64,000 bases of DNA from Larkinella rosea (GTDB taxonomy: Bacteria; Bacteroidota; Bacteroidia; Cytophagales; Spirosomataceae), in the NCBI RefSeq assembly GCF_003858635.1, contig NZ_RQJO01000008.1, positions 1,488,001 through 1,552,000 on the forward strand, read 5' to 3'. Shown here one piece after another: positions 4,300 to 19,693 of this stretch. The notes under the pieces were generated by a model. The model saw only the letters and a list, made by a program, of their open reading frames with translations. It ran no database searches and was not told the origin of the DNA. A program made the position numbers and the translations under genes. How positions within the stretch are numbered: the first letter of the stretch is position 1; each line of letters begins with the position of its first letter.

Positions 4300-5523
4300 T
4301 TATAACCTCAGCCGAATGCCCGCTTTACTCAGAAAACCGGTTATCCAGACACACAGCAACGCAAACAGAAAGGATTTTAGCAGACCCATTCCACCAATCA
4401 GCAAGAAGTCCGGCAGATGAATACCGAGTAAAGCCGTGGTGGCATAGGCAAAATACGGAATCAGGTAACACAGCAGCGTGTCGGTTCCGGCGGGTTTGAT
4501 GAAGCGGAACCAATGATCTTTTCCCAGTACATCGACGAGCCAGTAAATAACCGTAAATGCCAGCATCGTGAAGGCGCTGCACAGAAACAGCCAGGCCGGT
4601 GTTTCGTCCAGTTTCGATAGTCCCCAATACGGGCGCGTGAGTACCGATAGACCGATAAGTAAAACCGAAATGGCCAGAAAAACGAGCGTCATTTGTCGGT
4701 TATTGGCTTTCTTTCGGTACTGCTGAAACAGCGTTGCGATCACGACACCGCCCAGGCTCAGACCCGCCAGCGTTCCGTTGCGAATGGCACCGGGAATGAA
4801 ACTGACGGCTTTGGGCAACAGGTCCGCGTGGGCTACCAGGCTTAAAACCGCAAAACCGCCCCAGGCCGCGATCAAAACCGCCAGCCGGTTTCGGGCAAAA
4901 ACCGTGACCAGCGCAGCCGCCAGATACGACCAGCCGATGAGCCCCAGAATGCCCCACCAATGGGGCTCGAAGCGGGTTAATGCGCCGTTGTCACCACCAC
5001 GATACAGAATTGCTAGTGTCAACAAGATCAGCAAACCAATGATTTTCAGACACCGACTCAACCCTTTCGGCATCGATTTTGGGTACGCATTCCAGATCAG
5101 GATGAAGCAGCTACACGAAATGGCATACCACAGCAGCCGGTGCATGCCCGTCGCTTCGGCGTTGATCGATTCACCGTTGACCAGAAAAACGCCCATCGTC
5201 AGCAACGCAACCGACCGCTGCAAAACGTGACTCACCAGTTGAAAATCCGAATCGCCTTTTTTCCGGCGGTTGTCAATCGCGAAGGGCAGCGACATGCCCA
5301 CAAGGAACAGAAAAGCCGGGAAAACAACGTCGGCCAGCCCGATGCCGTCGGCTCCTGCTGGCACGTGTTCAAGCCAGACGGGAATGGCCTTTAGTGACCA
5401 GAGATCATTGACGAAAATCATCAGCACCATCGTCAACGCCCGCAGCATATCGATCGCTCCGACCCGCGCCGGGCTAATCACCGGTTGGACGGTTTGGGGG
5501 AATACGGGTTCAGGTTTACTCAT
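4300..5523 (-). CDS. DUF5009 / HGSNAT-like membrane acyltransferase
   Basis: 407 aa with about ten to eleven hydrophobic segments. The N terminus (ARVGAIDMLRALTMVLMIFVND, then ADVVFPAFLFLVGMSLPFAI) is characteristic of the DUF5009 and heparan-alpha-glucosaminide N-acetyltransferase-like family of the acyltransferase_3/YeiB clan. Known relatives move acetyl groups across a membrane to amino sugars; whether this one does is inference. In Bacteroidota such genes often sit beside glycan-degradation genes, and here it is next to a ThuA-like gene on the same strand. The start ATG at 5523 precedes a proline-rich cytoplasmic tail. There is no truncation. Confidence 0.85.
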   Translation of the reverse strand: MSKPEPVFPQTVQPVISPARVGAIDMLRALTMVLMIFVNDLWSLKAIPVWLEHVPAGADGIGLADVVFPAFLFLVGMSLPFAIDNRRKKGDSDFQLVSHVLQRSVALLTMGVFLVNGESINAEATGMHRLLWYAISCSCFILIWNAYPKSMPKGLSRCLKIIGLLILLTLAILYRGGDNGALTRFEPHWWGILGLIGWSYLAAALVTVFARNRLAVLIAAWGGFAVLSLVAHADLLPKAVSFIPGAIRNGTLAGLSLGGVVIATLFQQYRKKANNRQMTLVFLAISVLLIGLSVLTRPYWGLSKLDETPAWLFLCSAFTMLAFTVIYWLVDVLGKDHWFRFIKPAGTDTLLCYLIPYFAYATTALLGIHLPDFLLIGGMGLLKSFLFALLCVWITGFLSKAGIRLRL

Positions 5524-6615: not shown

Positions 6616-7740
6616 ATGCAAGATTATCGGAATATTGAGCCGGAGGAATTAGCGATTGATCCGTCTTTTCAGCGTTGGAAATTAATAAATGACCCTATCG
6701 AGAGTGATTTTTGGAAGAATTGGCTGGCTCAAAATCCGGATAAGGAAGAACTGATCGATAAGGCTTACCATTTGCTGAGTACGCTGACGGAGGTGTATGC
6801 GCGGTTTCCGACCGATCAGGCTCCTGTTTCGGATCGGGAAGTGAAAAACGAAATTCAACGGCTGCAACTCTCGATCGATGAAATCGAAAAACCAGCCGTA
6901 AAATGGTACCGGTTTACGCCCTGGCAGTACGGGATTGCGGCCGGAATCGTGTTGGTACTGGGCTTTTTCCTGCGGTATATGGTTCAGCAACCCGCTCCGA
7001 AAACAGGAACGACGTATCGGGAATTGATCACGCAGGTTTCAAAACCGCTCCTGGAAGTTGCCAACGCCAACAACGGACCAAAAACGATCAATTTGCCGGA
7101 CGGCAGCACCATCGTGTTGAAACCGCAGGGCCGGGTGAGTTACGCGAACGATTTCGGGGGTGAGATTCGGGAAGTCTATCTGGTGGGTGAAGCGTTTTTT
7201 GAAGTCCATAAAGACCCGAGCCGTCCTTTTTACGTGTACGCCAACGGATTGGTAACGAAGGTGTTAGGGACCAGTTTTACGGTACAGGCCCCGGAAGATG
7301 CGAGTCAGGTAAAGGTATTGGTGAAAACCGGTAAGGTATCGGTTTTTGCGGGCACGCAGGCGACGGTTTCACAGCAGAAAGAAGATTACAAACTGGGCGG
7401 AATCGTGTTGACACCCAATCAGCAGATCGTCTTTTCGCCGACCGACACGCGCATCATCAAGAGTGTGGTGCCGAAACCGGCCATGCTGGAAGGGCCCGCT
7501 AAGTATCAGCTGTTTAGCTTCAAACGAACGCCGATTGCCGAGGTTTTCGCCACCCTTGAAAAATCGTACGGAATTAAAATTGTCTACGATGAAGAGGTCA
7601 TGAAAGACTGTTACCTGACGGCTTCGCTGGACGACGAACCGCTATTTGAGAAGCTGGATTTGATCTGTAACACCATCAGTGCGCATTACGAACAAATGGA
7701 CGCACACATCATCATTACCAGCAAAGGCTGTCAGCTTTAA
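6616..7740 (+). CDS. FecR-family anti-sigma factor
   Basis: 374 aa. The N-terminal 100 residues are cytoplasmic and would hold the sigma factor. One membrane helix lies at about 104-122 (WQYGIAAGIVLVLGFFL). The periplasmic FecR domain follows (TINLPDGSTIVLKPQGRVSYA, VYLVGEAFFEVHKDPSRPFYVY, KVLGTSFTV). The C-terminal STN-like DUF4974 domain is at about 295-372 (FKRTPIAEVFATLEKSYGIKIVYD). Such proteins pass a signal from a TonB-dependent receptor to an ECF sigma factor. No receptor or SusD gene is next to it; the only sigma gene in view is the partial one at the window start. It may act with partners elsewhere. Confidence 0.93.
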   Translation: MQDYRNIEPEELAIDPSFQRWKLINDPIESDFWKNWLAQNPDKEELIDKAYHLLSTLTEVYARFPTDQAPVSDREVKNEIQRLQLSIDEIEKPAVKWYRFTPWQYGIAAGIVLVLGFFLRYMVQQPAPKTGTTYRELITQVSKPLLEVANANNGPKTINLPDGSTIVLKPQGRVSYANDFGGEIREVYLVGEAFFEVHKDPSRPFYVYANGLVTKVLGTSFTVQAPEDASQVKVLVKTGKVSVFAGTQATVSQQKEDYKLGGIVLTPNQQIVFSPTDTRIIKSVVPKPAMLEGPAKYQLFSFKRTPIAEVFATLEKSYGIKIVYDEEVMKDCYLTASLDDEPLFEKLDLICNTISAHYEQMDAHIIITSKGCQL

Positions 7741-7842: not shown

Positions 7843-8304
7843 ATGAAATCACAACGCCGATCCCTCCTCAAACGCCTTTTTGCCTCAGTCGCCGGAATTA
7901 CCGGTCTGGGTGTCGCCACCTCGAAAGCGGAAGCCGCTGCTGCTCCGCAGAAAGAAGTCTTCAATGTGGTTACGGAACAGGATGTACCGCTGTTTTCCGG
8001 TTCGACCAAAATGGGAAATCTGGTTTTTGTGGCCGGAAAAGGCTACCACAAAGAAGGTGATATCAAAGTGCATACGGATGAGGTGTTGAAAGAATTGGAA
8101 AAAGAGCTGATTAAAGCCGGTTCGTCGATGGAAAAAGTGTTGAAAGTGACGGTTTTCCTGCACGATCTGAACGATTACAAAGCCATGAACGAAGTGTACA
8201 AAGGCCGGTTTGGCAGCAAGCCGCCGGTGCGCACAACGGTAGCGGTTTACGGCGGTGTTCCCGGCGATTCGCTCGTTGAAATGGACTGTATCGCTTACAT
8301 TTAA
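7843..8304 (+). CDS. Exported RidA/YjgF-family protein with twin-arginine-type signal
   Basis: 153 aa. RidA proteins hydrolyse reactive enamine/imine intermediates made by PLP enzymes; most are cytoplasmic. This one has a leader with RRSLLKRL at residues 5-12, then a hydrophobic stretch and AEAAAA, the layout of a Tat signal peptide. The RidA core follows, with conserved R130 (PVRTTVAV) and E146 (VEMDCIAYI) in the positions used by active deaminases. It opens the cluster that also encodes two Tat-type PLP enzymes, which fits a periplasmic clean-up role (inference). A hairpin with a T run separates it from the next gene. Confidence 0.92.
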   Translation: MKSQRRSLLKRLFASVAGITGLGVATSKAEAAAAPQKEVFNVVTEQDVPLFSGSTKMGNLVFVAGKGYHKEGDIKVHTDEVLKELEKELIKAGSSMEKVLKVTVFLHDLNDYKAMNEVYKGRFGSKPPVRTTVAVYGGVPGDSLVEMDCIAYI

Positions 8305-8315
8305 TTGAATTTCAG

Positions 8316-8348
8316 GCCGCTCTTTCGCTTCGGGAGGGCGGTTTTTTT
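8316..8348 (+). terminator. Terminator-like hairpin after the RidA gene
   Basis: Stem CCGCTCT / AGGGCGG with one mismatch, followed by a run of seven T. It lies between the RidA gene and the PLP enzyme gene and may cause partial termination or mark the end of a separate transcript. Confidence 0.6.
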
Positions 8349-8372
8349 GTACGTCTTAGTTAACCCATCGAC

Positions 8373-9596
8373 ATGATCAGTAGAAGAAAAATCCTCAAAC
8401 GGTTATCGACCATGCCGCTGCTGGGCGGATTGGTAGGCAGTACAGCGCCGTTGCAATCAGCCCTGGCCGCAACCACCTCGCTGGCTCCCCGAAACCTGGT
8501 GAAAGAGCTGGGAATCAGAACGTTCATCAATGCCGCCGGAACCTACACCGCCATGACGGGTTCGCTGATGCAGGACGAGGTGATGGAAACCATTCAGGCG
8601 GCTTCCAAAGAATTCATGATGCTCGACGATGTGCAGACTAAAGTCGGGGAGAAAATTGCCGCGTTGGTTCACGCCGAATCGGCGGTGGTAACGGCGGGCT
8701 GTTTCTCGGCCATGACACTCGGTCTGGCGGGTGTGCTGACCGGCATGGATCAGAAGAAAGTGGAAGCGCTGCCGCAACTGGAAGGCACCGGCATGAAATC
8801 CGAAGTGATCGTTCAGAAAGGCCACAACGTCGGGTATTCGCACGCCCTGACCAATACGGGCTGCAAGATGGTTTTTGTCGAAACCGTCGAGGAAGTCGAA
8901 AAAGCCATCAACGAAAAAACCGCTCTGATGTGGTTTCTGAACATCCAGTCGGATCAGGGCAAAATCATGCACCAGGAGTGGGTGAATCTGGCGAAGAAAC
9001 ACAACATCCCGACCATGATCGACATTGCCGCCGATGTGCCGCCGGTCGAAAACCTCTGGAAATTCCACGAAATGGGCTTTGATCTGGTGTGCGTTTCGGG
9101 CGGAAAAGCCATGCGCGGGCCGCAAAGCGCCGGGATTCTGATGGGCAAAAAACACCTGATTGCCGCTGCCCGGCTGAGCATGCCGCCCCGTGGTTCAACG
9201 ATCGGTCGCGGGATGAAAGTAAATAAGGAAGAAATTCTGGGCATGTACGTCGCGCTCGAAAAATTCGTCGGTCAGGATCAGCAGAAGGAATGGAAAATGT
9301 GGGAAGACCGCGTGGCGCATATTTCCGATACCGTTAAAAAAGTCAATGGCGTTTCGGTGGAAACCTTCCGGCCCGAACTGGGCAATCACACGCCGACCCT
9401 GCGAATCAAGTGGGAACCCGCCAAAATCAATCTGACGACGAAAGCCCTGCAGGAAAACCTGCGCAACGGCGATCCGTCGATTGAAGTTGTGGGTGAACAG
9501 GGCGGTATCAGCCTGACCACCTGGATGTTGAAGCCGGGTCAGGAGAAGATTGTCGCAACCCGATTAAAGGAAGAACTCACGAAAGCGTCGGTCTGA
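8373..9596 (+). CDS. Tat-exported SelA-like PLP-dependent enzyme, copy 1
   Basis: 407 aa, fold type I. The leader SRRKILKRL (residues 3-11) then a hydrophobic run to about A33 is a twin-arginine-type signal, unusual for a PLP enzyme. The domain resembles the selenocysteine synthase-like family that includes D-glucosaminate-6-phosphate ammonia-lyase. The predicted Schiff-base lysine is K245 in SGGKAMRGPQSAG and the pyridine-N aspartate is D217 in MIDIAADVPP. The reaction is probably ammonia elimination or a related step, but the substrate is unknown. The amidohydrolase gene follows after 27 bp. Members of these two families (SelA-like plus cog3964 amidohydrolase) are neighbours in other bacteria too. 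A second copy lies at 14894. Confidence 0.9.
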   Translation: MISRRKILKRLSTMPLLGGLVGSTAPLQSALAATTSLAPRNLVKELGIRTFINAAGTYTAMTGSLMQDEVMETIQAASKEFMMLDDVQTKVGEKIAALVHAESAVVTAGCFSAMTLGLAGVLTGMDQKKVEALPQLEGTGMKSEVIVQKGHNVGYSHALTNTGCKMVFVETVEEVEKAINEKTALMWFLNIQSDQGKIMHQEWVNLAKKHNIPTMIDIAADVPPVENLWKFHEMGFDLVCVSGGKAMRGPQSAGILMGKKHLIAAARLSMPPRGSTIGRGMKVNKEEILGMYVALEKFVGQDQQKEWKMWEDRVAHISDTVKKVNGVSVETFRPELGNHTPTLRIKWEPAKINLTTKALQENLRNGDPSIEVVGEQGGISLTTWMLKPGQEKIVATRLKEELTKASV

Positions 9597-9623
9597 TTTT
9601 AGTTGCTTATTACTCCTAAACCC

Positions 9624-10871
9624 ATGCGAAAACTGTATTTTTTAGTCTTGCTGATCGGTTGTATCGGGGGGACGCTTCGTGCCCAGACCTATAGCATCGT
9701 CATCAAGGGCGGGCAGGTGATCGACCCGAAAAACAACCTCAACGAAGTGCTGGATGTGGCCATTACCGACGGTAAAATCGTGCAGGTCGCCAAAAACATC
9801 GACGCCAGTAAGGCCAAGCAGGTGGTCAATGCCAAAGGCATGCTGGTGACACCCGGCCTGATCGACATCCACGGCCACGTTTTTTACGGCACCGAACCGA
9901 ATCACTACCTGAGTAACGGCCTGACGGCGGTTTCGCCCGACGGTTTTACGTTCCGCGTGGGCGTTACCACCATCGTTGATGCGGGTGGAGCAGGTTGGCA
10001 GTCGTTTCCGGCTTTCAAGAAAAATATCATTTTCTCGTCAAAAACGCGGGTTCTTTCGCTGCTCAACATTGTTGGCGAAGGCATGCGGGGCGGCAACTGG
10101 GAACAGGACACGACCGACATGGACCCGAAAATGGCGGCTGCCATGGCACTCGGAAATGCGAACGATGTGGTCGGTTTCAAAGTTGCACACTACATGGGTG
10201 GCACCTGGACGCCCGTCGACCGGGCCGTGGAAGCCGGGAAACTGGCGAATATGCCGGTAATGGTCGACTTCGGGATGCACAATCCGCCGTTGTCGCTCGA
10301 GCAACTGTTCCTGAAACACCTCCGCCCCGGCGACATTTTCACCCACACCTATACCTTGCTGGACGACAATGTTCGCGAAACGATTGTGGACGAAGCCACC
10401 GGGAAAGTAAAACCGTTTGTCTGGGAAGCCCGCAAACGGGGCATTGTTTTCGACGTGGGCTACGGGGGCGCCAGCTTCAATTATTCGCAGGCCATTCCCG
10501 CCGTCAAAGCCGGTTTTTTGCCGACTACGATCAGCACCGATTTGCACACCGGCAGCATGAACGGTTCGATGAAAGACCTCCTGAGCATCATGTCCAAATT
10601 CGTCGGGATGGGCGAGTCGGTGCCGGATGTGATCAAAGCCAGTACCTGGACGCCCGCGCAGGTGATCAAGCGCGAAATGCTGGGGCATATCTCGGTTGGA
10701 GCCATCGCCGATGTGGCCATTCTAACGATGCGGGAGGGTAATTTTGGCTTCTACGACAAAACCGGATACCGGGTGGAAGGCAAGAAAAAATTTGAATGCG
10801 AAATGACCATCAAAGGCGGTCGGATTGTGTACGATCTCAACGGCATTGCCAATCCGCTGGTCGTGCGGTAA
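9624..10871 (+). CDS. Exported cog3964-type amidohydrolase/deacylase, copy 1
   Basis: 415 aa from the ATG at 9624 (the TTG at 9603 would only add residues before a clear signal peptide ending LRAQ). Amidohydrolase-superfamily landmarks: HxH (H83, H85) in LIDIHGHVF, K186 in GFKVAHY as the likely carboxylated lysine, H241 in IFTHTY, and D306 with H308 in STDLHTGS. The strand-5 histidine expected in binuclear members seems to be replaced (PVMVDFG, D215). Characterised cog3964 relatives deacetylate small N- or O-acetyl compounds; older databases call them dihydroorotase or adenine deaminase. It acts in the periplasm with the PLP enzyme just upstream. A duplicate is at 16159. Confidence 0.9.
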   Translation: MRKLYFLVLLIGCIGGTLRAQTYSIVIKGGQVIDPKNNLNEVLDVAITDGKIVQVAKNIDASKAKQVVNAKGMLVTPGLIDIHGHVFYGTEPNHYLSNGLTAVSPDGFTFRVGVTTIVDAGGAGWQSFPAFKKNIIFSSKTRVLSLLNIVGEGMRGGNWEQDTTDMDPKMAAAMALGNANDVVGFKVAHYMGGTWTPVDRAVEAGKLANMPVMVDFGMHNPPLSLEQLFLKHLRPGDIFTHTYTLLDDNVRETIVDEATGKVKPFVWEARKRGIVFDVGYGGASFNYSQAIPAVKAGFLPTTISTDLHTGSMNGSMKDLLSIMSKFVGMGESVPDVIKASTWTPAQVIKREMLGHISVGAIADVAILTMREGNFGFYDKTGYRVEGKKKFECEMTIKGGRIVYDLNGIANPLVVR

Positions 10872-10938
10872 AGAGTAAAGAATCGAGACAAAAGAGGTGA
10901 GATAATAAACAATCGAAGTCATTGGAATTTGTCTCACG

Positions 10939-10977
10939 TCTCTTGTCTTATTTCTCTTGTCTTATTTCTCTTGTCTA
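10939..10977. repeat. 14-bp tandem repeat, 2.8 units
   Basis: The unit TCTCTTGTCTTATT is repeated head to tail nearly three times. Upstream, around 10885-10905, a loosely complementary AGACAAAAGAG segment could pair with it. It lies between the amidohydrolase gene and the propeller-cytochrome gene. Confidence 0.75.
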
Positions 10978-11002
10978 TTAAAACCTAACTCGAACGTTTT
11001 AA

Positions 11003-12760
11003 ATGTCGAAATTCTACACGAAAAGCTGTCTGCTAATTCTGCTGGCTGCTGTTGGATTTACGCAGCGGGATTCCCAAAACAACCTGCCGGCCCGGACGGC
11101 GGAAAATGGCGGACTGTTTCTGCCCGAAGGCTTTGAAGCGACTGTCGTGGTCGACAGTCTGGCGGGTCGGGCGCGGCACCTGGCCGTCAACGACAACGGC
11201 GATATTTACGTCAAAGCGCGGTTTGTGCGCGATAAGGACGAGTCGGTAATCGCCTTGCGCGATACCAATGGCGACGGTCGGGCCGACATCATCAAACGGT
11301 TTGGCGGTCTATCGCGCGAGCGGGCGTACGGAACGGCGATGCGGATTCACAACGGCTACCTGTATTTCAGTTCCGAACTGATCGTGTATCGCTACAAACT
11401 GACGCCCGGCCAACTGGTTCCGGAAGGTCCGGCGGAGGTGATTCTGACCGACGACCACGCCCACGGCATGCACGAGCACATCACCAAACCGGTTGCGTTC
11501 GACAACAAAGGCTACATGTATGTGCCGTTCGGGGCCGGTTCCAACGCGTGTCAGGAGAAAAACCGCATTCCGAGTTCGCCGGGTCTGAATCCCTGCGGCT
11601 TGCTCGCCGACCACGGCGGCATCTGGCGGTTCGATGCCAACAAAGCGGGGCAGACCCAAAAAGACGGGAAGCTATTTGCCACCGGATTGCGAAGCATTGT
11701 GGCGCTGGACTGGAATCCGGTCGATCAAACGCTCTATACCGTCGGACACGGCCGCGACGATTTTCTGATGTTATGGTCGCATTTGTACACACCCTGGCAA
11801 AGCGCCGTGTTGCCCTCCGAAGAGTTTTTGCGGGTGAAAGAAGGGATGGACGCGGGCTGGCCGTATTATTACTACGACCAGATTCAGAAGAAAAAGCTCC
11901 TGAATCCCGAATACGGTGGCGATGGCAAAAAGCAGGGCAAAGGCGCTGAGTATGAGCAGCCCATCATCGGTTTTCCGGCGCACTGGGCACCCAACGACCT
12001 CGTGTTTTACCAGGGAACCGGTGCCAAAAACGGTTTTCCGGCGCATTACAAAAACGGCGCTTTCATTGCTTTCCACGGTTCGACCAACCGCGCACCTTAT
12101 CCGCAGGCCGGTTATTTCATCGGTTTTGTTCCCGACAAAAACGGCTCACCATCCACCGATTGGGAGGTGTTTGCCGACGGTTTTGCGGGGGTCGATCCCG
12201 TCGTGAACGTAAGCGATGCGGTGTATCGGCCGATGGGGATTGCAATGGGACCCGATGGGTCGCTGTATATCGCCGAAACCGAAAAAGGCAAAATCTGGAA
12301 GATTACGTACAAAGGCGATAAGTCGAAATTTGGATCGGCGCAACTGGCGCAGATGGAAAAACGGAAGACGATGTCGACCATCCGGACGCCGGACCAAATT
12401 GCCGACAACCTGGACAAGGACAAACCGGTGATGGGCAGTAAAGTCTACGCCGTGTATTGTGCCGCCTGCCACCAGCGCAACGGTCGGGGCGACTCGCAGC
12501 GGTTTCCACCCCTGGCCGATTCCGAATGGGTTTTGGGCGACAAAAACCGCCTGATCGAAGTGCTTTTAAAAGGACTCGACGGACCGATTGAAGTGAAAGG
12601 CCAGTCGTACAACAACGTGATGCCGCAACACGACTTTCTGAAGAACGAAGACATCGCGGAGGTGCTGACGTTTGTCCGGCAAAACTTCGGCAATTCAGCC
12701 ACTGCCATTACGGCGGATGAGGTGGGTGCCGTTCGGAAGACGGTTAAAAAGAAGAAATAA
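11003..12760 (+). CDS. Sorbosone-dehydrogenase-like propeller fused to cytochrome c
   Basis: 585 aa, with a signal peptide of about 20 residues. Residues 35-440 form a six-bladed beta-propeller of the soluble glucose/sorbosone dehydrogenase type (LPEGFEATVVVDSLAG, MRIHNGYLYFSSE, ADHGGIWRFDANK, GLRSIVALDWNP, PMGIAMGPDGSLYIAETEKGKIWKI). A class I cytochrome c domain follows with heme motif C486-AA-C489-H490 (YCAACHQRNGRGD) and NNVMPQHDFL holding the probable axial Met. Such fusions oxidise sugars or alcohols in the periplasm, probably with PQQ, and hand electrons to the respiratory chain. Substrate and cofactor are inferred. The C terminus is a Lys-rich tail. Confidence 0.88.
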   Translation: MSKFYTKSCLLILLAAVGFTQRDSQNNLPARTAENGGLFLPEGFEATVVVDSLAGRARHLAVNDNGDIYVKARFVRDKDESVIALRDTNGDGRADIIKRFGGLSRERAYGTAMRIHNGYLYFSSELIVYRYKLTPGQLVPEGPAEVILTDDHAHGMHEHITKPVAFDNKGYMYVPFGAGSNACQEKNRIPSSPGLNPCGLLADHGGIWRFDANKAGQTQKDGKLFATGLRSIVALDWNPVDQTLYTVGHGRDDFLMLWSHLYTPWQSAVLPSEEFLRVKEGMDAGWPYYYYDQIQKKKLLNPEYGGDGKKQGKGAEYEQPIIGFPAHWAPNDLVFYQGTGAKNGFPAHYKNGAFIAFHGSTNRAPYPQAGYFIGFVPDKNGSPSTDWEVFADGFAGVDPVVNVSDAVYRPMGIAMGPDGSLYIAETEKGKIWKITYKGDKSKFGSAQLAQMEKRKTMSTIRTPDQIADNLDKDKPVMGSKVYAVYCAACHQRNGRGDSQRFPPLADSEWVLGDKNRLIEVLLKGLDGPIEVKGQSYNNVMPQHDFLKNEDIAEVLTFVRQNFGNSATAITADEVGAVRKTVKKKK

Positions 12761-12792
12761 ACAGAAAAAAGATCGGTACGGAAAATTACCAG

Positions 12793-12933
12793 CCCACGGT
12801 TTCAACCGTGGGTTCGCGGAAAACACCGGATCATTCCAACCGTTTTAACGGTTTTGATTGCCGAAAACCGTTAAAACGGTTTCAGGAGTTTCGGGTACTT
12901 ATTTCATTTGAAACCCACGGTTTAAACCGTGGG
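12793..12933. repeat. Palindromic element, CCCACGG/AAACCG family, copy 1
   Basis: Four hairpin units in nested order. The outer ones are CCCACGGTTTCAACCGTGGG (12793-12812) and CCCACGGTTTAAACCGTGGG (12914-12933); the inner ones are AACCGTTTTAACGGTT (12838-12853) and AAACCGTTAAAACGGTTT (12865-12882). The outer units can also pair with each other to fold the whole 141 bp. The same design, with the same ATTACCAG left flank, recurs at 60340-60482. Confidence 0.88.
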
Positions 12934-12977
12934 CTATTAATTTAAAATAAACAGCCTATTATTTTTAGTTTCAATTT

Positions 12978-13418
12978 ATGCATTTGTTTAGACGATATCC
13001 TGTCGGTCTTTTAATCCTGGGTTTGATTGGCATTATGGGTTTTACTCATAACCTCAAAACCGATGACCCCAAACCGGAAAGATGGAAAGCCCCGGTTTGG
13101 GCCGATACGCTGAAAAGCCACTTCCCGACGGAGCCGCTGACGCTGGCGCAGGGCGAAGAATTATTCATGGAATATTGTTCGTCCTGCCACGGCGAAACCG
13201 GTTTTGGCGACGGTGCTGCGGGTCGTTCACTGGGATCAAAACCGGCCAACTTCCATGACCCCGAAGTAACGAAGCAAACGGATGGAGCTTTGTTCTGGAA
13301 ACTGTCGAACGGGCGCGGAAATATGCCGCCTTTTAAAGACGTTTTTTCGGAAGAACAACGCTGGCAGCTGGTCGCCTTTCTGCGCAAATTAAATACAACG
13401 AAGACCGATACGAAATGA
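12978..13418 (+). CDS. Small c-type cytochrome
   Basis: 146 aa. An N-terminal hydrophobic segment (about 8-22) acts as signal or anchor. The single heme motif is C67-SS-C70-H71 in MEYCSSCHGETGFGDG, and NGRGNMPPF supplies the probable axial methionine. It is a monoheme class I cytochrome c of the periplasm. Its stop overlaps the start of the next propeller gene (ATGA, 13415-13418), so the two are translationally coupled, and the cytochrome is probably the electron acceptor for that propeller protein (inference from context). Confidence 0.92.
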   Translation: MHLFRRYPVGLLILGLIGIMGFTHNLKTDDPKPERWKAPVWADTLKSHFPTEPLTLAQGEELFMEYCSSCHGETGFGDGAAGRSLGSKPANFHDPEVTKQTDGALFWKLSNGRGNMPPFKDVFSEEQRWQLVAFLRKLNTTKTDTK

Positions 13419-14869
13419 ACCCGTTAAACGCATTTTTTGGAAAAATAAACCGGTTGCTTATCGTGATTTGCTGCCCGGTTTTAGCCGTTGCGCAAAGCCC
13501 GGATGCAAAACCACCGGTTCCGCCGATGGCCCTGCGGCCGGATATCAAGGTGGAACACTACATGGCCGTCGGTCCCGAAGCCGTGCGGCTGATTCAACAT
13601 CCGGTTTCCGGTGAAATGTATTACACCACGTTTACCGGTGATGTGTTCCGAATCAAGACGGCAGAGGGGCAGCCGCCGGTGGCGGAGAAGGTTTTTTCGG
13701 CGGAAGATCACGGCATTACGCGCTTGCAGGGAGCAGCATTTCTGAAAAATACGCTGTTTCTGGCCGGTAACATCAGCGTCAACAACAACAAGGGAACGAA
13801 GGGCCGGATGGTCCGCTACGACCTGGCGTCGGGCGAAAAACCGGAGATGACGGTCGTGTTCAACACCGTTGAATACGGCACGAACAAAACTACCTTTGAT
13901 CACGGCTGGAATGCGCTCGAGGTAAGCCCGGATGGGAAATACATTTACGTCAATACCGGCGCGCGGACCGATCACGGTGAGGTGCAGGACAATGGTGGCG
14001 TGTATCCGAATGCGCGGGATAATGCCCTGACAGCCCGCATTTTCCGGTTTCCGGTCGATGCGAAAAACCTGGAGCTGGCGAATGATGAAGCCAAACTACG
14101 GGCGGCCGGATACGTTTACGCCGAAGGAATCCGGAATGCGTACGACATGGCTTTTGACGCGGATGGAAAGCTGTTTGCGGTTTCCAATTCGGGCGATTAC
14201 GACCACGCCGAAGACATGTTCTGGATCCGGCAGGGGCATCATTACGGTTTTCCGTGGGTGATGGGCGGCATCGATAATCCGCAGCAAAATCCCGACTGGC
14301 AGCCCGACCCGGAAAAAGATCCGTTTATGAGCAAGTTCGCCCACGCATGGCTGATGCGGTATTTCCGGAACGACCCCGATTTTCCGAAAAAACCGGCGGG
14401 TGTCAAGTTTACCGGCCCGGTTTTGAATATGGGCCCCGATGCCAACGAATACCGGGAACTGAAAACCGGTGTCGTCATGGACGGTGATTCAACGGGCGTT
14501 GGCGTTGGAACCTTTAATGCGCACAGCTCACCGCTGGCTTTGTTTTTTGATACCAAAAAAGTGCTGGCCGATGAATTTAAAGGCGATGGTTTTGTCATTC
14601 GCTACGCCGGTCCGCGACGCGGTTCAACCCTCATCAACCCGCTCAAAAAACAGGGCCGGGACTTATTACATCTTGATTTAGCTTACAACAAAAGCACGGA
14701 TAATTATACGGTCAAAACCACCCGAATTGTCGACGGTTTTACGGAGCCAACGGATGCGTTACTGGTGGATAATACTGTCTATATTATTGAATACGGCGGC
14801 AAGGGCGGCAACATCTGGAAGATTACGTTACCCGCCGATCCGAAAGCCACGAAGAAGAAACGTAAGTAG
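13415..14869 (+). CDS. Exported sugar-dehydrogenase-like beta-propeller protein
   Basis: 484 aa. Signal peptide to about AVAQ (residue 27). The body is a glucose/sorbosone dehydrogenase-type propeller: FDHGWNALEVSPDGKYIYVNTGARTDHG, YAEGIRNAYDMAFDADGKLFAVSNSGD, WIRQGHHYGFPWVMGG, TGVGVGTFNAHSSPLALFF and DALLVDNTVYIIEYGGKGGNIWKI. There is no heme motif of its own; the coupled cytochrome upstream would take the electrons. The conserved HG and GxRN segments fit the PQQ-site architecture of soluble aldose dehydrogenases, but cofactor and substrate are not proven. The C terminus is Lys/Arg-rich. The second PLP enzyme gene follows after 24 bp. Confidence 0.85.
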   Translation: MNPLNAFFGKINRLLIVICCPVLAVAQSPDAKPPVPPMALRPDIKVEHYMAVGPEAVRLIQHPVSGEMYYTTFTGDVFRIKTAEGQPPVAEKVFSAEDHGITRLQGAAFLKNTLFLAGNISVNNNKGTKGRMVRYDLASGEKPEMTVVFNTVEYGTNKTTFDHGWNALEVSPDGKYIYVNTGARTDHGEVQDNGGVYPNARDNALTARIFRFPVDAKNLELANDEAKLRAAGYVYAEGIRNAYDMAFDADGKLFAVSNSGDYDHAEDMFWIRQGHHYGFPWVMGGIDNPQQNPDWQPDPEKDPFMSKFAHAWLMRYFRNDPDFPKKPAGVKFTGPVLNMGPDANEYRELKTGVVMDGDSTGVGVGTFNAHSSPLALFFDTKKVLADEFKGDGFVIRYAGPRRGSTLINPLKKQGRDLLHLDLAYNKSTDNYTVKTTRIVDGFTEPTDALLVDNTVYIIEYGGKGGNIWKITLPADPKATKKKRK

Positions 14870-14893
14870 TCAAACCAATCGATTAAAAACCGT

Positions 14894-16111
14894 ATGTTAA
14901 GCAGAAGAAAACTCATCAAACGCCTGTCGAGTGTCCCTCTTTTGGGCGGATTGGTTGGCGGACTGCCCTTATCGTCCGAAGCCGCTGCAATGTCGGCTCC
15001 CAAGCGCGATCTGTTCAAAGAACTCGGTGTTCGGACGTTCATCAATGCCGCCGGAACACTGACTTACATGACGGGCTCGCTGATGCACGACGAAGTGCTC
15101 GAAGCCATCAATTATGCCTCGAAAGAGTTCTGTCTGCTCGACGAACTGGAGGACAAGGTCGGGGAGAAGATCGCCAAACTGGTGCATTCAGAAGCCGCCG
15201 TCGTGACGTCGGGCGCGTTCTCCGGGATGACGCTGGGCCTGGCCGGGATTCTGACGGGCATGGACCAGAAAAAAATCGAAGCGTTGCCGCACCTGGAAGG
15301 CACCGGCATGAAATCCGAAGTGATTTGTCAGAAAGGCCACGAAATCGTTTACAACCACGCGCTGATCAATACCGGCTGCAAGATGGTCTACATCGAAACC
15401 GTCGAGGAACTGGAAAAGGCCATTAACGAAAAAACCGCCCTGCTGCATTTTCTGCACATCCAGTCGGACAAGGGCAAGATCATGCACGAGGAGTGGGTGG
15501 CGCTGGGCAAAAAACACAACATCCCGACTTCCATCGACATTGCCGCCGACGTGCCGCCGGTCGAAAACCTGTATAAATTCAACGATATGGGTTTCAGTTT
15601 TGTGGTTGTATCGGGTGGAAAAGCGATGCGCGGACCGCAAAGTGCCGGTTTGCTGATGGGTAAAAAAGACATCATTGCGGCTGCCCGGCAACACATGCCC
15701 CCGCGCGGCTACAACATCGGTCGCGGGATGAAGGTGAACAAGGAGGAAATTCTGGGGATGTATGTCGCGGTCGAGAAGTTTCTGGCGCAGGATTTTGCCA
15801 AAACCTGGAAAGGCTGGGAAGAAGGTGTTGCGCACGTGGAAAGCACGGTGAAAACCGTTAACGGTGTGAAAACCGAAGTCCGCGTGAATCCGTTGGGCAA
15901 CCATACCCCGTCACTGCGCATTTCCTGGGATCCGGCGGTTTTGAAAGTGACCGGAAAACAGGTTCAGGAAGCGTTGCGGGCGGGCGATCCGTCCATTGAA
16001 GTGGGCGGAGGTGGTCCCAGCAGCATCGGCGTGACGGTCTGGATGCTGAAACCGGGTCAGGAAAAAATCGTCGCGAAACGGATCAAAGAGGAACTTTCGA
16101 AGGCGGTTTGA
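14894..16111 (+). CDS. Tat-exported SelA-like PLP-dependent enzyme, copy 2
   Basis: 405 aa. A close paralogue of the 8373 gene along its whole length, with long identical blocks such as SGGKAMRGPQSAG, IGRGMKVNKEEILGMYVA and DIAADVPPVENL. The leader is SRRKLIKRL at residues 3-11, again twin-arginine-like. The predicted lysine is K243 and the cofactor-binding aspartate D215, so it should be active. It lies between the propeller gene and the second amidohydrolase copy. The two copies may handle related but distinct substrates or form a hetero-oligomer; the sequence does not decide. A proposed reaction is deamination or elimination on an amino acid or sugar-acid substrate. Confidence 0.9.
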   Translation: MLSRRKLIKRLSSVPLLGGLVGGLPLSSEAAAMSAPKRDLFKELGVRTFINAAGTLTYMTGSLMHDEVLEAINYASKEFCLLDELEDKVGEKIAKLVHSEAAVVTSGAFSGMTLGLAGILTGMDQKKIEALPHLEGTGMKSEVICQKGHEIVYNHALINTGCKMVYIETVEELEKAINEKTALLHFLHIQSDKGKIMHEEWVALGKKHNIPTSIDIAADVPPVENLYKFNDMGFSFVVVSGGKAMRGPQSAGLLMGKKDIIAAARQHMPPRGYNIGRGMKVNKEEILGMYVAVEKFLAQDFAKTWKGWEEGVAHVESTVKTVNGVKTEVRVNPLGNHTPSLRISWDPAVLKVTGKQVQEALRAGDPSIEVGGGGPSSIGVTVWMLKPGQEKIVAKRIKEELSKAV

Positions 16112-16158
16112 GGCCGGTAACGAGTCGGATTTGTTATTTCTACCCTAAACTATTCCCC

Positions 16159-17439
16159 ATGAAAAAACCGTTTCTTTTCGTCCTGACCGGCTTGATTGCC
16201 ATCGGTCAGCTCGCCTGGGCGCAGCCGTATCACGTTGTGATCAAGGGTGGCCACGTCATCGACCCCAAAAATAACCTCAACGGCATCATGGATGTGGCGA
16301 TTCTGGACGGCAAAATTGCAAAAGTAGCCAAGGACATCGACGCAACCGGCGCCCGGCAGGTGGTGAAAGCCAAAGGCTTATACGTTACGCCCGGTTTGAT
16401 CGACATCCACACGCACGTTTTTTTCGGAACGAATATGGATCAGACCTACAGCAACGGTCCGAATGCGCTGCCGCCCGACGGTTTTACGTTTCGGAACGGC
16501 GTGACGACCATCGTCGATGCGGGTTGTTCGGGCTGGCGTGATTTTGAAACGTTCAAGAAACAGACCATTGATAAGTCTCAGACGCGGGTGCTGGCGTTGC
16601 TCAACATTGTCGGCAGCGGCATGCGGGGCGGCAAGTTCGAGCAGAACATCGAGGATATGGATTCCAAAGCGACGGCGGAAATGGCCCAGAAATACCCGGA
16701 TCTGGTGGTTGGCGTTAAACTGGCGCACTTCAACGGCCACGACTGGACGCCCACCGACCGCGCCGTGGAAGCCGGAAAATTAGCGAACAAACCGGTGATG
16801 ATCGACTTTGGCGGTAGTAAACCGACGCTTTCCATCGAAGAATTGTACCTGCAACACCTGCGTCCGGGCGACATATTCACCCACTGTTTCGGGCAGTTGG
16901 GCACCCGCGAACCGATTCTGGACGTGACGACCAACAAGATAAAACCGTTCGTTTGGGAAGCGCAGAAGAAAGGAATTATTTTCGACGTCGGCTACGGCGG
17001 CATTAGTTTTGCCTTCTCACAAGCCATTCCGGCCCTGAAAAGCGGTTTTTTTCCGAACACGATCAGCACCGATATTCACACCGGCAGCATGAACAACGCG
17101 ATGAAAGACATGCTGAACGTGATGTCGAAATTTCTGGCGATGGGCATGGACCTGAAAAGCGTCATCAAAGCCAGCACGTACAGCCCGGCGCTGGCGATCA
17201 AACACCCCGAACTCGGTAGCCTGAGCGAAGGCTCGGAAGCGGACGTCGCCATTCTGGACTTGCAGGACGGTAAATTTGCGGTTCGTGACACCGGTTATTT
17301 TGGTTTCTTCGATTACACTGGTCACAAAATTGAAGGCAAACAAAAGCTGACTTGCGAAATGACCATCCGCAAAGGCCGGATCGTCTACGACCTGAACGGC
17401 ATTGCCGACCCGATTGTGGTTCAGCCGCGGGCGCAGTGA
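16159..17439 (+). CDS. Exported cog3964-type amidohydrolase/deacylase, copy 2
   Basis: 426 aa from the ATG at 16159, chosen because it begins a typical signal peptide (MKKPFLFVLTGLIAIGQLAWAQ); the frame is open from 16108 without family sequence. Metal-site residues: H84 and H86 (IDIHTHVF), K187 (VGVKLAH), H242 (IFTHCF), D305 and H307 (STDIHTGS). The strand-5 position again reads PVMIDFG (D216) instead of His. It is paralogous to the 9624 gene, with YFGFFDYTG and GRIVYDLNGIADP near the end. It ends just before a palindromic repeat, after which the symporter gene has its own promoter-like box. Confidence 0.9.
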   Translation: MKKPFLFVLTGLIAIGQLAWAQPYHVVIKGGHVIDPKNNLNGIMDVAILDGKIAKVAKDIDATGARQVVKAKGLYVTPGLIDIHTHVFFGTNMDQTYSNGPNALPPDGFTFRNGVTTIVDAGCSGWRDFETFKKQTIDKSQTRVLALLNIVGSGMRGGKFEQNIEDMDSKATAEMAQKYPDLVVGVKLAHFNGHDWTPTDRAVEAGKLANKPVMIDFGGSKPTLSIEELYLQHLRPGDIFTHCFGQLGTREPILDVTTNKIKPFVWEAQKKGIIFDVGYGGISFAFSQAIPALKSGFFPNTISTDIHTGSMNNAMKDMLNVMSKFLAMGMDLKSVIKASTYSPALAIKHPELGSLSEGSEADVAILDLQDGKFAVRDTGYFGFFDYTGHKIEGKQKLTCEMTIRKGRIVYDLNGIADPIVVQPRAQ

Positions 17440-17446
17440 CGTTGAC

Positions 17447-17534
17447 GTACCCACGGACTTCAGTCCGTGACATTCTCCGGTTTTTCAGCATCATCTGGAA
17501 TAGCTTGGGCTCACGGACTAAAGTCCGTGGGTAC
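17447..17534. repeat. Palindromic element, CCCACGGACT family, copy 1
   Basis: The left arm (17447-17469) holds CCCACGGACTTCAGTCCGTG; the right arm (17511-17534) holds CACGGACTAAAGTCCGTGGG. The two 24-nt arms are inverted copies with one mismatch, each itself a palindrome, around a 40-nt centre. The same family recurs at 63278-63400. Confidence 0.88.
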
Positions 17535-17549
17535 ATCACCGTAAACTGT

Positions 17550-17557
17550 TATATTTG
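17550..17557 (+). promoter_or_regulatory. -7 box TATATTTG before the symporter gene
   Basis: Perfect match to the Bacteroidota TAnnTTTG element, 32 bp before the ATG at 17589. No clear TTTG is seen at the -33 position. Confidence 0.5.
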
Positions 17558-17588
17558 GATGTTTTTCCTAAACCTTTGAAAAATTACC

Positions 17589-18701
17589 ATGTATAAACTG
17601 ATTCTGGGTTTGGCGGGCATCAGCCTGCTGGTCGCGCTTGGATTGATGATTTCCGGAAATCTCCCGATGGCCGGACCTTTTCTGATTGCCTTCTTTTTGG
17701 CCGTTGCTATCGGTTTTCGGGGTTTCGAAAATTTGAAAGGGTTTTCGTACACGGTCATGATTTTTGCCGCGGTCACCACGGCTTTGTTTTATCCGACGTA
17801 TTTTGTTTCCTACAACGGCTTTAAATTCAGCACATTAATTACGCCATTGATTCAGCTGATCATGTTCGGGATGGGTACGTCGATGAGTCTCAACGATTTT
17901 GTGGGCGTGGTTAAAATGCCGCGCGGGGTATTGATCGGTGTCGTCAGTCACTTCATCATCATGCCTTCCATTGGGTTTACACTGGCGAGCATCAGTGGTT
18001 TGCCGCCCGAAATTGCTGCCGGTATTATCCTGATCGGCTGTTCGCCCAACGGCATGGCTTCCAACGTGATTTCATACCTGGCCAAAGCCAACTTAGCCTT
18101 ATCCATTACGATTACGGCCATTTCCACCATGATGGCTCCTTTTGTGACACCGATTCTAATGCGGACGTTGGCCGGGGCTTTCGTCGAAATCGATACGCTG
18201 GCGATGATGTGGGACATTACCAAAATGGTGATTCTGCCGATTGGCGCAGGTCTGCTGTTCAATCACTTTTTGAGCGGAAAAGCCAAGTGGCTGGACGATG
18301 CCATGCCGTATGTGTCGATGTTTGGCATCACCTTTATCATTGTCATTATTACCTCGGCGGGGCGCAATAGCCTGCTTTCGATTGGCCCGATTCTGCTCGG
18401 TCTGGTCCTGATTCACAACCTGTCCGGATATTTTCTGGGCTATTGGTCGGGGCGTTTGTTCCGGATGAGCGAGCGCGACTGCCGTACCATCGCCATTGAA
18501 GTGGGTATGCAAAACGGCGGTCTGGCGTCGGGCATTGCCAATCAAATGGGCAAAATGGCCACCGTTGGTCTGGCTCCGGCCATTTTTGGGCCGTTGATGA
18601 ACATTACCGGCTCCATTCTGGCGTCGTGGTGGCACCGCCGGATGCCCAAAGAAGAGCGGGAAGCCCCGCAGGAAATGGTGCACGGGCACCGGAGTTTGTA
18701 G
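17589..18701 (+). CDS. Bile acid:sodium symporter (BASS/SBF) family transporter
   Basis: 370 aa, about ten membrane helices. The crossover region typical of the family is visible: GFTLASISGLPPEIAAGIILIGCSPNGMASNVISYLAKANLALSITITAISTM. GMQNGGLASGIANQ matches the second repeat. Members move organic acids (bile acids, pyruvate, pantothenate and others) with Na+. Placed at the end of the periplasmic catabolic cluster, it probably imports an acid product (inference). The start follows a good -7 box at 17550. The C terminus is a short charged tail. Confidence 0.92.
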   Translation: MYKLILGLAGISLLVALGLMISGNLPMAGPFLIAFFLAVAIGFRGFENLKGFSYTVMIFAAVTTALFYPTYFVSYNGFKFSTLITPLIQLIMFGMGTSMSLNDFVGVVKMPRGVLIGVVSHFIIMPSIGFTLASISGLPPEIAAGIILIGCSPNGMASNVISYLAKANLALSITITAISTMMAPFVTPILMRTLAGAFVEIDTLAMMWDITKMVILPIGAGLLFNHFLSGKAKWLDDAMPYVSMFGITFIIVIITSAGRNSLLSIGPILLGLVLIHNLSGYFLGYWSGRLFRMSERDCRTIAIEVGMQNGGLASGIANQMGKMATVGLAPAIFGPLMNITGSILASWWHRRMPKEEREAPQEMVHGHRSL

Positions 18702-18711
18702 CTTTTAATCC

Positions 18712-18768
18712 GTTTATGGTTTTGTGTTGATAGATATTACTTCCAACCATAGACACTAAACCATAAAC
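18712..18768. repeat. Imperfect inverted repeat (TTTATGGTTTT type)
   Basis: GTTTATGGTTTTGTGTT (18712-18728) against GACACTAAACCATAAAC (18752-18768), 15 of 17 pairing. It fills most of the gap between the symporter and SMP-30 genes. No T run follows, so it is not a canonical terminator. Confidence 0.75.
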
Positions 18769-18784
18769 TAACCAACCTTTTTTG

Positions 18785-19693
18785 ATGAAAAAAGTATCGC
18801 TTGTTGCAGCGGCCACGTTTGCCGGGCTTGGCCTATTATTCGTTTCGGCGAAAACCGCTGAGGACTTGTTCAAATCGACGGTTTTTACACCGGTGAACGG
18901 TTTTACGTCCGGCGTCGAAGGTCCGGCGGTGGATAAATCCGGGACGGTTTACGCGGTCAATTTTGGCAAGCAGGGCACGATCGGACAGGTTACGGCGGGC
19001 GGTGAAGCCAGCGTATTCGTTGAATTACCCGAAGGCAGCATCGGTAACGGCATCCGGTTCAGCAGGAAAGGCGATATGTTCATCGCTGATTATCCCAAAC
19101 ACAACATCCTGAAAGTGGCGGCCGGCACGAAAACCGTCAGTGTGTTTGCCAACGAACCGCGTATGAACCAGCCCAACGACATTGCGATCGACAGCAAGGA
19201 CCGGCTTTACGCGAGCGATCCGAGCTGGAAAAACAATACCGGAAACATCTGGCGAATCGACACGGACGGCAAGGTGACCGCGCTGGAAGAAAACATGGGC
19301 ACCACCAATGGCATCGAGGTGAGCCCCGATGATAAAAGGCTGTACGTCAACGAGTCGAACCAGCGAAAAGTCTGGGTGTACGATTTGTCGGCGAGTGGTC
19401 AGGTGAGCAACAAACGGCTGCTGATCGAGTTTCCGGATTTCGGCATGGATGGCATGCGCTGCGACGCCGACGGTAATTTATACATCGCCCGGTTTGGCAA
19501 AGGAACCGTCGCCAAAGTGTCTCCGGACGGCAAAGTGGTGCAGGAAATCCAGTTGGTCGGCAAACGCCCCACGAACATCTGTTTCGGTGGAAAAGACGGC
19601 CGTACGGCCTACGTCACGCTCCAGGATCAGGGCAATCTGGAAAGTTTCCGGGTCGACAAACCGGGCCGGGAGTGGGCAATGCGCAAGAAGTAA
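18785..19693 (+). CDS. Exported SMP-30/gluconolactonase-like protein
   Basis: 302 aa from the ATG at 18785 (a TTG three bases earlier is also open). N-terminal signal peptide MKKVSLVAAATFAGLGLLFVSA. A six-bladed SMP-30 propeller with the usual metal-site stretches: E45 in GVEGPAVD, NQPNDIAIDSKDRLY, GTTNGIEVSPDDKRLYVNES and FGMDGMRCDADGNLYIARFGKG. Family members hydrolyse sugar lactones; one would be produced by the sugar dehydrogenase-like proteins upstream, so a place in the same pathway is reasonable. It is the last gene of the + strand cluster and converges with the regulator gene 14 bp away. Confidence 0.9.
   Translation: MKKVSLVAAATFAGLGLLFVSAKTAEDLFKSTVFTPVNGFTSGVEGPAVDKSGTVYAVNFGKQGTIGQVTAGGEASVFVELPEGSIGNGIRFSRKGDMFIADYPKHNILKVAAGTKTVSVFANEPRMNQPNDIAIDSKDRLYASDPSWKNNTGNIWRIDTDGKVTALEENMGTTNGIEVSPDDKRLYVNESNQRKVWVYDLSASGQVSNKRLLIEFPDFGMDGMRCDADGNLYIARFGKGTVAKVSPDGKVVQEIQLVGKRPTNICFGGKDGRTAYVTLQDQGNLESFRVDKPGREWAMRKK

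Follow-up and report, generated by a model that had tools for sequence, protein, structure and literature searches.

Predicted Tat export of SelA-like pyridoxal phosphate enzymes together with a Rid protein in Larkinella rosea, and a possible periplasmic route for amino-sugar acids

A row of ten genes in Larkinella rosea (assembly GCF_003858635.1, contig NZ_RQJO01000008.1, positions 1,488,001 to 1,552,000 of the forward strand; this whole stretch of 64,000 nucleotides is the window analyzed here) raises the question of whether two pyridoxal phosphate (PLP) enzymes and a Rid protein are exported by the twin-arginine translocation (Tat) system, and on what substrate they might act outside the cytoplasm. 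By the open reading frame (ORF) list the ten genes, all on the + strand, fill positions 7843–19693; coordinates are positions within the window and refer to the + strand unless stated otherwise. The source genome comprises 8.17 Mb and is 99.94% complete. The initial annotation described a fully exported pathway with eight exported enzymes or electron carriers. The family names that it gave to the ten genes agree with the Pfam and NCBIfam profile matches, and a recount yields nine soluble proteins with leaders (Rid, two SelA-like enzymes, two amidohydrolases, two propellers, one cytochrome and one SMP-30 protein) plus one membrane symporter. Comparison of the sequences strongly supports the assignment of Tat-type leaders to Rid and both PLP enzymes, as well as the grouping of these genes in a single module. 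The pathway as a whole is probably not fully exported, given the Na+ symporter within the cluster and the genes for a 2-keto-3-deoxygluconate (KDG) kinase-like protein and a 2-keto-3-deoxy-6-phosphogluconate (KDPG) aldolase elsewhere in the genome.

The nine leaders are split between three of Tat type (Rid, SelA1 and SelA2) and six that are Sec-like and hydrophobic, the latter assessed by visual inspection and, in relatives, by a simple hydropathy count. Rid (PF01042, 153 aa; 7843–8304) begins with MKSQRRSLLKRLF and contains the motif QRRSLLK. The SelA/DgaE-like PLP enzyme SelA1 (407 aa; 8373–9596) begins with MISRRKILKRL, with the motif SRRKILK, and the second such enzyme, SelA2 (14894–16111; 72% identical to SelA1), begins with MLSRRKLIKRL, with the motif SRRKLIK. 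A moderately hydrophobic stretch follows each of the three N-termini. A scan of GTDB genomes returned 416 stretches with relatives, the best 80 of which gave 74 named loci. Throughout these loci a pattern search located a twin arginine at the N-terminus of 84/84 SelA and 65/67 Rid proteins, one of the 65 being an odd FRRLFSS; the two that fail are in loci L045 (RQRHS) and L086 (frame cut short). The same pattern is found in 0/90 amidohydrolases (Amd), 0/41 GSDH2, 0/35 CytC, 2/62 SorbCyt and 1/22 SGL proteins. As nearly all of the partners lack it, leaders of Tat type are almost exclusive to Rid and the PLP enzymes. Assessed by alignment column, the twin arginine is present in 64/66 Rid proteins and the remaining two have Arg-His, and it is found in 26/26 SelA proteins of a separate alignment set comprising 24 picked from 37 relatives together with SelA1 and SelA2 of the window.

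A SelA1 relative at E ≤ 1e-30 is present in 21 of 99 nearby genomes, the source genome counted. In the SelA and module-type Rid proteins of the loci from those 21 genomes, the twin arginine is conserved within an otherwise variable leader, the exceptions being a SelA fragment in L012 (6981) and a Rid relative in L030 that is 35% identical and belongs to another Rid type than that of the module. Apart from the L012 fragment, the twin arginine lies within ~ 10 residues of a plausible methionine in the SelA frames, which led us to reject the leaders as an artefact of early start assignments. The alignment of SelA1 with its closest solved relative, D-glucosaminate-6-phosphate ammonia-lyase (DGL), begins at query residue 41. 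Five of six plasmid homologues inspected are without a leader, and the sixth, from Granulicella, has its own twin-arginine leader. The genome has one TatC match. The Tat targeting that had been proposed for both PLP enzymes and Rid withstood an in silico attempt to refute it in favor of a cytoplasmic location. Nor are Tat-exported PLP enzymes unprecedented, as PvdN and PtaA of Pseudomonas are reported to be such proteins (PMC6206403).

Co-occurrence was counted by tblastn (E ≤ 1e-8, matches spanning 50% or more of the query) in the 66 loci that reach 20 kb, the other 8 of the 74 being shorter; these loci are related to one another and were picked by SelA, and so do not represent independent draws. 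SelA is found in 66/66, Amd in 65/66 and the Tat-type Rid in 61/66. In 15/66 there is another Rid, whose leader is Sec-like, and a Rid of either type is present in 66/66. SelA, Amd and a Rid occur together in 65/66 loci, and in 56/66 SorbCyt is there as well. For scale, the entire 8.17 Mb genome contains six Rid matches. The counts for the other components are 39/66 for GSDH2, 37/66 for the cytochrome, 43/66 for CBM9, 37/66 for SusC, 28/66 for SusD, 38/66 for FecR, 38/66 for a lactonase of either type, 12/66 for the BASS symporter, 6/66 for RraA-like proteins and 5/66 for GH20. Gene order is reshuffled among the loci, and the 74 named loci span Larkinella, Spirosoma, Dyadobacter, Xanthocytophaga, Rhodocytophaga, Lacihabitans, Flavihumibacter, Aquiflexum, Lunatimonas and others. 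The nearest named locus by SelA1 is that of Larkinella terrae, with 99% identity, in a scan that possibly left out the window's own record.

SelA1 relatives at E ≤ 1e-60 occur in 8 of 395 genomes across the phylum, three of them outside the class. Relatives of SelA, Rid, Amd, SorbCyt and SGL are all present in three loci from outside the class (L119, L120 and L121), to which L119 adds RraA-like, BASS and CBM9 genes and L121 adds SusC/SusD relatives; a fourth such locus, at a contig end (L125), shows SelA alone. All five SelA proteins of these four loci begin with a twin arginine. In the acidobacterium Granulicella tundricola, one plasmid encodes consecutively an RraA family protein, a SelA-like protein (TRRRFLG), a RidA (SRRGLLK), a further PLP protein (SRREVLK), an amidohydrolase of cog3964 type, a lactonase (TRRSILA) and a protein with a BBE domain. 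When plasmids were searched with Rid, Granulicella gave the best match (57%), the others among the best 15 of 166 being weak. Failure of these genes to co-occur elsewhere would have spoken against the pathway of the initial annotation, and the opposite was found, in a second class and an acidobacterium as well.

By sequence, the nearest solved relative of the SelA-like enzymes is DGL (7lc0, E 8.5e-34), followed by Cap15 (8t7j). Foldseek with the SelA1 model (predicted local distance difference test score, pLDDT, 79.8) also ranks 7lc0 first by E-value, with TM-scores of 0.72/0.79, and Cap15 second, the TM-score of Cap15 being level with or slightly above that of DGL at ~ 24% identity over the fold. 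Identity as a selenocysteine synthase was rejected, the SelA match being weak and DGL far closer by both sequence and Foldseek. The PLP lysine, K245 in SelA1 (9105–9107) and K243 in SelA2 (15620–15622), is invariant in 84/84 relatives; it aligns with DGL chain residue 213 by our own count, numbered Lys-217 in the DGL paper. DGL Arg226, placed near the carboxylate by docking (PMC9529869), corresponds to K259, and this column is K or R in 83/84 relatives (K 67, R 16, one gap). Family, fold, PLP lysine and this column are shared with DGL, and the same β-elimination is likely. In contrast, the DGL phosphate ligands Arg301, Arg332 and Arg346 align with T342, a gap and W384, and none of the 84 relatives has Arg at columns 342 and 384. 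DGL His162 and His163 align with Q192 and S193 (S193 at 8949–8951), and His is found at positions 191–195 in none of the 84 relatives. The curated DgaE-type equivalog cut-off (TIGR01437, 385.3 bits) is far above the scores of SelA1 (158.1 and 192.1) and SelA2 (145.8 and 177.9), and the Tat-type leader is a further difference from DGL. SelA1 and SelA2 are therefore DGL-like yet not DGL, with the aligned proton donor gone. Their substrate is probably unphosphorylated, whereas that of DGL is phosphorylated during uptake by the phosphotransferase system.

Two further groups of SelA-like genes were observed. The genome has a third SelA-like gene, ~ 60% identical and with a twin-arginine leader (G000:C12:684198-685298; L005:9198-10475), with no Rid or amidohydrolase relative within ~ 9 kb; ~ 5 kb downstream lies a gene that resembles lactonases (45% to the 7-bladed type). 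A longer SelA-like family (~ 540–560 aa, ~ 35% identical), which bears a C-terminal extension and twin-arginine leaders, is present in L031, L032, L033, L034 and L124 and adjoins module genes in L031, L034 and L124.

Rid retains the catalytic residues of the RidA imine deaminase family. Arg130 (codon 8230–8232) and Glu146 are kept in 66/66 Rid proteins and match E. coli RidA Arg105 and Glu120, the register being consistent with the solved chains. The score against PF01042 (72.5) exceeds its cut-off (27.3), and that against TIGR00004 (69 bits) is below its cut-off (106.25 bits), so that the module's Rid departs from characterized RidA in this respect as well as in its Tat-type leader. The idea that Rid lacks the catalytic arginine, raised by its differing C-terminal motif, was refuted, as this residue lies in the PVRTT motif and is invariant. 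The conserved arginine is described as required for imine hydrolysis, and catalytic Arg and Glu characterize the family (PMC4433059). A connection between Rid and the PLP enzymes is offered by DGL itself: the H163A variant is reported to keep a high rate and to release an aminoacrylate-type enamine into solution, and the authors suggest that the histidine protects against this enamine, naming RidA as a protein that breaks such enamines down (PMC9529869). Enamine release of this kind could explain the export of Rid beside SelA proteins without that histidine. An enamine-releasing PLP enzyme and a Rid that could share one compartment constitute our main mechanistic proposal.

The remaining members of the row bear Sec-like leaders, except for the symporter. 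Amd1 (9627–10871) and Amd2 (16159–17439) are cog3964-type amidohydrolases/deacetylases that exceed the NF006689 cut-off of 371 bits (441.8 and 451.7). Five Amd1 residues that we take to be metal ligands are conserved, namely H82 and H84 (87/88), K185 (86/88), H240 and D305 (88/88), and the same residues recur when 2ogj and 8je0 are aligned. Profile and structure matches indicate kinship with deacetylases and, weakly, with D-aminoacylases. Atu3266, a cog3964 enzyme, reportedly hydrolyzes N-acetyl-D-serine weakly and acetyl-(R)-mandelate better. SorbCyt (11003–12760) combines a glucose/sorbosone dehydrogenase propeller with a C-terminal cytochrome c domain, a cytochrome c is encoded at 12978–13418, and GSDH2 (13415–14869) is a second propeller of the same dehydrogenase type with a GIRN motif in 40/41 relatives. 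Both propellers are above the PF07995 cut-off of 25 (36.7 and 30). The SMP-30/gluconolactonase-like propeller (18785–19693) has an N-terminal hydrophobic leader. The BASS (SBF) Na+ symporter (17589–18701) matches the PanS (NF047939, 228 bits, cut-off 400) and TIGR00841 models below their cut-offs. BASS carriers such as PanS and plant BASS2 move 2-oxo acids, and sugar dehydrogenases and lactonases make aldonates.

What substrate would suit these families? The elimination chemistry of SelA requires a β-hydroxy (C3) amino acid, and the aldonate-making dehydrogenases and lactonase, the adjacent deacetylase, GH20 and the RraA-like genes together point to the series N-acetylhexosamine, aldonate, 2-amino-aldonate and KDG. 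GH20 enzymes release N-acetylhexosamines; the GH20 gene sits between SusD and Rid in L103, the order in Spirosoma arboris is SusC, SusD, GH20, Rid, SelA, Amd, and the present genome has five GH20 matches. For an RraA-like aldolase the substrate would have to be a 4-hydroxy-2-oxo acid. RraA-like genes also occur in loci beyond the 66, and the R-D pair is kept in all RraA-like sequences that reach it (8/9); the string GxxRD is found in only 1/5 exported RraA-like proteins, and on that account their treatment as proven aldolases was dropped. We infer, at about even odds, that the substrate is an N-acetylhexosamine-derived 2-amino-aldonate. The initial annotation had allowed N-acyl amino sugars or D-amino acids, a choice that this inference narrows to the former in the shape of N-acetylhexosamine and its 2-amino-aldonate; its four chemistries of deacylation, elimination, imine clean-up and oxidation fit the families found.

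Our preferred reading, a reasoned model of the reaction sequence with a probability of roughly 0.5, is that N-acetylhexosamines are oxidized, deacetylated and deaminated in the periplasm and that the 2-oxo-3-deoxy acid so formed is then imported. The propeller dehydrogenases would oxidize the sugar at C1, with cytochrome c as electron acceptor, and the lactonase would open the resulting lactone to a 2-acetamido-2-deoxy-aldonate, e.g. N-acetylglucosaminic acid (GlcNAc1A). The cog3964 amidohydrolases may then remove the acetyl group to give a 2-amino-2-deoxy-aldonate, which resembles a β-hydroxy D-amino acid. The SelA/DGL-like enzymes, presumably folded and loaded with PLP in the cytoplasm before Tat export, would eliminate the C3 hydroxyl and, without the proton donor DGL His-163, release the enamine. 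Co-exported Rid would hydrolyze this enamine or imine to a 2-keto-3-deoxy acid of KDG type and ammonia, and would thereby shield the PLP enzymes in a compartment where PLP is not easily renewed. The BASS symporter might import the 2-oxo acid, and KDG-kinase-like and KDPG-aldolase genes elsewhere could finish its breakdown; the KDG-kinase-like matches in this genome are below their cut-offs and one of the two eda (KDPG-aldolase) matches is above. In some relatives an additional exported protein, a putative aldolase of RraA-like type, could cleave the 2-oxo acid outside. Each of the two SelA/Amd pairs may be devoted to one of two epimeric substrates. The broader notion, of an amino-sugar-acid route moved to the periplasm as far as the 2-keto-3-deoxy acid by Tat export of the PLP-loaded enzymes, with a dedicated Rid required because these enzymes no longer have the proton donor that would hold back the enamine, in Bacteroidota and Acidobacteriota, is more tentative and falls somewhat short of an even chance.

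A separate sugar-acid enzyme with a Tat-like leader (SRRNVIQ) was seen at G000:C10 ~ 604270–605499 (L117:4270-5499, +). This galactonate dehydratase (NF010624, 441 bits, cut-off 311) follows SusC/SusD relatives and precedes eda with one unassigned gene between, and by its sequence is apparently a second exported sugar-acid dehydratase in this genome.

Several observations weigh against the amino-sugar-acid route or its parts. Generic Tat-signal hidden Markov models match none of the window proteins at E ≤ 1, except for TIGR02811 with SelA2 at E = 0.11, below its cut-off; since these models are silent, the Tat assignment derives from the N-terminal motif and its conservation. Two of four Rid proteins of the distant class, one each in L119 and L120, carry RK instead of RR, and the Granulicella BBE protein has no obvious leader. 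A histidine at position 190, three columns before DGL His163, is present in 42/84 relatives and in SelA2; it is a possible donor, and slightly lowers the odds of the broader notion given above. A Rhizobium homologue that is cytoplasmic keeps the SHH motif, yet has a Rid neighbor of another type, which contradicts a strict rule that the absence of His163 calls for Rid. Homologues of Natronosalvus, Sinorhizobium and Mesorhizobium have neither SHH nor an annotated Rid neighbor, and likewise disagree with a simple rule; DgaE of Lacticaseibacillus keeps SHH, with no annotated Rid in the stretch viewed. By tblastn, GH20 is missing from 61/66 loci and from the window operon. The gamma-glutamyltranspeptidase of the L029/L030 operons and the S15 peptidase of L087 would suit amino-acid amides equally well. 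On the oxidation side, GSDH2 has no solved relative by sequence, and its top Foldseek matches include 2ism, 3a9g and 2g8s among other propellers with a weak model (pLDDT 64.8); the solved chains matching SorbCyt cover only the cytochrome domain, bar a short teneurin match. A PqqC search of the genome matched nothing, its control being equally silent.

Alternatively, the module may degrade N-acyl-D-amino acids or peptides containing D-amino acids (e.g. N-acetyl-D-serine or -threonine), with the dehydrogenases and the lactonase acting on other substrates. Deacylation would be followed by PLP-dependent dehydration of a β-hydroxy amino acid, Rid would clear the enamine, and the symporter would import the 2-oxo acid. 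The kinship of Amd with deacetylases and weakly with D-aminoacylases agrees with this, as do the two peptidases just named, an M19 dipeptidase upstream in L042, and the reported clustering of RidA genes with those of PLP enzymes, threonine dehydratase among them (PMC4433059). We nevertheless consider it unlikely, because SorbCyt, the lactonases, GH20 and the RraA-like genes are left unexplained and because the nearest solved PLP relative is a sugar-acid lyase.

Less probable still, the SelA-like proteins could be O2-dependent PLP enzymes that, in an aerated periplasm, oxidize a β-hydroxy-α-amino acid to an imine, amide or 2-oxo acid, the imine being hydrolyzed by Rid. The rank of Cap15 in the sequence and Foldseek searches and its TM-score are compatible with such a function, and Cap15 is likewise without the aligned His pair, though it has a His one column further on. 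Cap15 is described as acting on a β-hydroxy-α-amino acid with O2 (PMC7497351), PvdN, itself Tat-exported, is thought to use O2 (PMC7497351, PMC6206403), and arginine-bearing Rid proteins are said to clear imines arising from amine oxidases (PMC4433059). The E-values argue for elimination instead, as DGL is above Cap15 in both searches. Periplasmic modification or detoxification of a natural product or antibiotic amide, rather than nutrition, seems improbable: Cap15 and PvdN do belong to natural-product pathways (PMC7497351), and the patchy distribution over the phylum would fit, but the frequencies of SusC, SusD and FecR indicate nutrient uptake. That the twin-arginine leaders are non-functional and the PLP enzymes and Rid cytoplasmic is very improbable, for the silent Tat models and the RK and RH variants are set against a motif conserved in otherwise variable leaders, the acidobacterium included, against plasmid homologues that mostly lack such a leader, and against Sec-like leaders on the partner enzymes.

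The amino-sugar-acid route preferred here has a close published parallel in the Ong cluster for oxidative chitin utilization of Pseudoalteromonas prydzensis, the nearest pathway found, which is assigned to the cytoplasm and uses a different PLP fold. There, a deacetylase and a PLP deaminase, both predicted to be cytoplasmic, convert GlcNAc1A to KDG, and a RidA protein of unknown role is essential for growth on GlcNAc1A (PMC9537276). The module described here appears to be an exported equivalent of that cluster, assembled from different protein families. An amidohydrolase-type deacetylation of an acetylated amino-sugar acid followed by PLP-dependent deamination to KDG, as proposed here, is common to both, and GH20, TonB-dependent receptors, a Na+ symporter and RidA are also involved in the Ong system (PMC9537276). 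In contrast, OngB is related to D-aminoacylases, OngC is of fold type III and the symporter is of the SSS family (PMC9537276), whereas the PLP enzyme of the present module is of SelA/DGL type and carries a leader of Tat type, the deacetylases have leaders too, and dehydrogenases and a lactonase lie within the cluster. The oxidized sugar of the Ong pathway derives from a lytic polysaccharide monooxygenase (LPMO; PMC9537276), whereas this genome gave no AA10 LPMO match in a search that matched 1/14 controls, and LPMO-driven chitin oxidation by this strain was rejected accordingly.

PvdN and PtaA are folded, PLP-loaded, Tat-exported and active in the periplasm (PMC6206403, PMC7497351), a likeness that extends to the predicted export here. 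They differ in tailoring siderophore side chains by other reactions, and the available text of these papers mentions no Rid partner (PMC6206403, PMC7497351). Cap15 is a Streptomyces enzyme of capuramycin biosynthesis (PMC7497351). An exported module of this form was not found in the literature searched, a body from which subscription journals are mostly missing.

Should the proposed route be correct, PLP-based catabolism would run where PLP is not made, so that cofactor retention and enamine damage would be managed outside the cytoplasm. It would offer a testable reason for the tie between RidA and sugar-acid deamination that the Ong paper leaves open (PMC9537276), and extend PLP-bearing Tat substrates beyond the siderophore enzymes of Pseudomonas. 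It would also assign a function to gene sets of Dyadobacter, Spirosoma, Larkinella, Chitinophagaceae and other genomes that are labeled by family alone.

Three of the listed ORFs start early, the likelier starts being 9627 (Amd1), 16159 (Amd2) and 18785 (SMP-30). A terminator-like hairpin of 14 pairs with a T run lies between Rid and SelA1 (8314–8344, +), and another precedes the cytochrome gene (12914–12933). A single transcript for all ten genes therefore cannot be assumed; hairpin-type sites in the window total 13, below the shuffle mean of 21.8. Upstream of Rid is a FecR-type protein (6616–7740), with no SusC/SusD between the two; many other loci have the order FecR, SusC, SusD and then the module.

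A HGSNAT/DUF5009-like membrane protein (4300–5523, −) that is possibly linked to amino sugars adjoins the cluster, and its family recurs by gene order in six other Larkinella loci, L101 and L108. Glycan-related genes downstream include a sulfatase with an SGSH-type C-terminus (22898–24322, +) and glucuronyl-esterase-like and sialate-esterase-like proteins (26537–27916, − and 27955–29973, −). A further putative dehydrogenase (30179–32845, +) combines a DUF7133/GSDH-like propeller with HEAT repeats and also matches cytochrome c weakly. Finally, the L029/L030 operon contains a 451-aa protein (L030:10754-12106, −) with no Pfam match at E ≤ 0.01.

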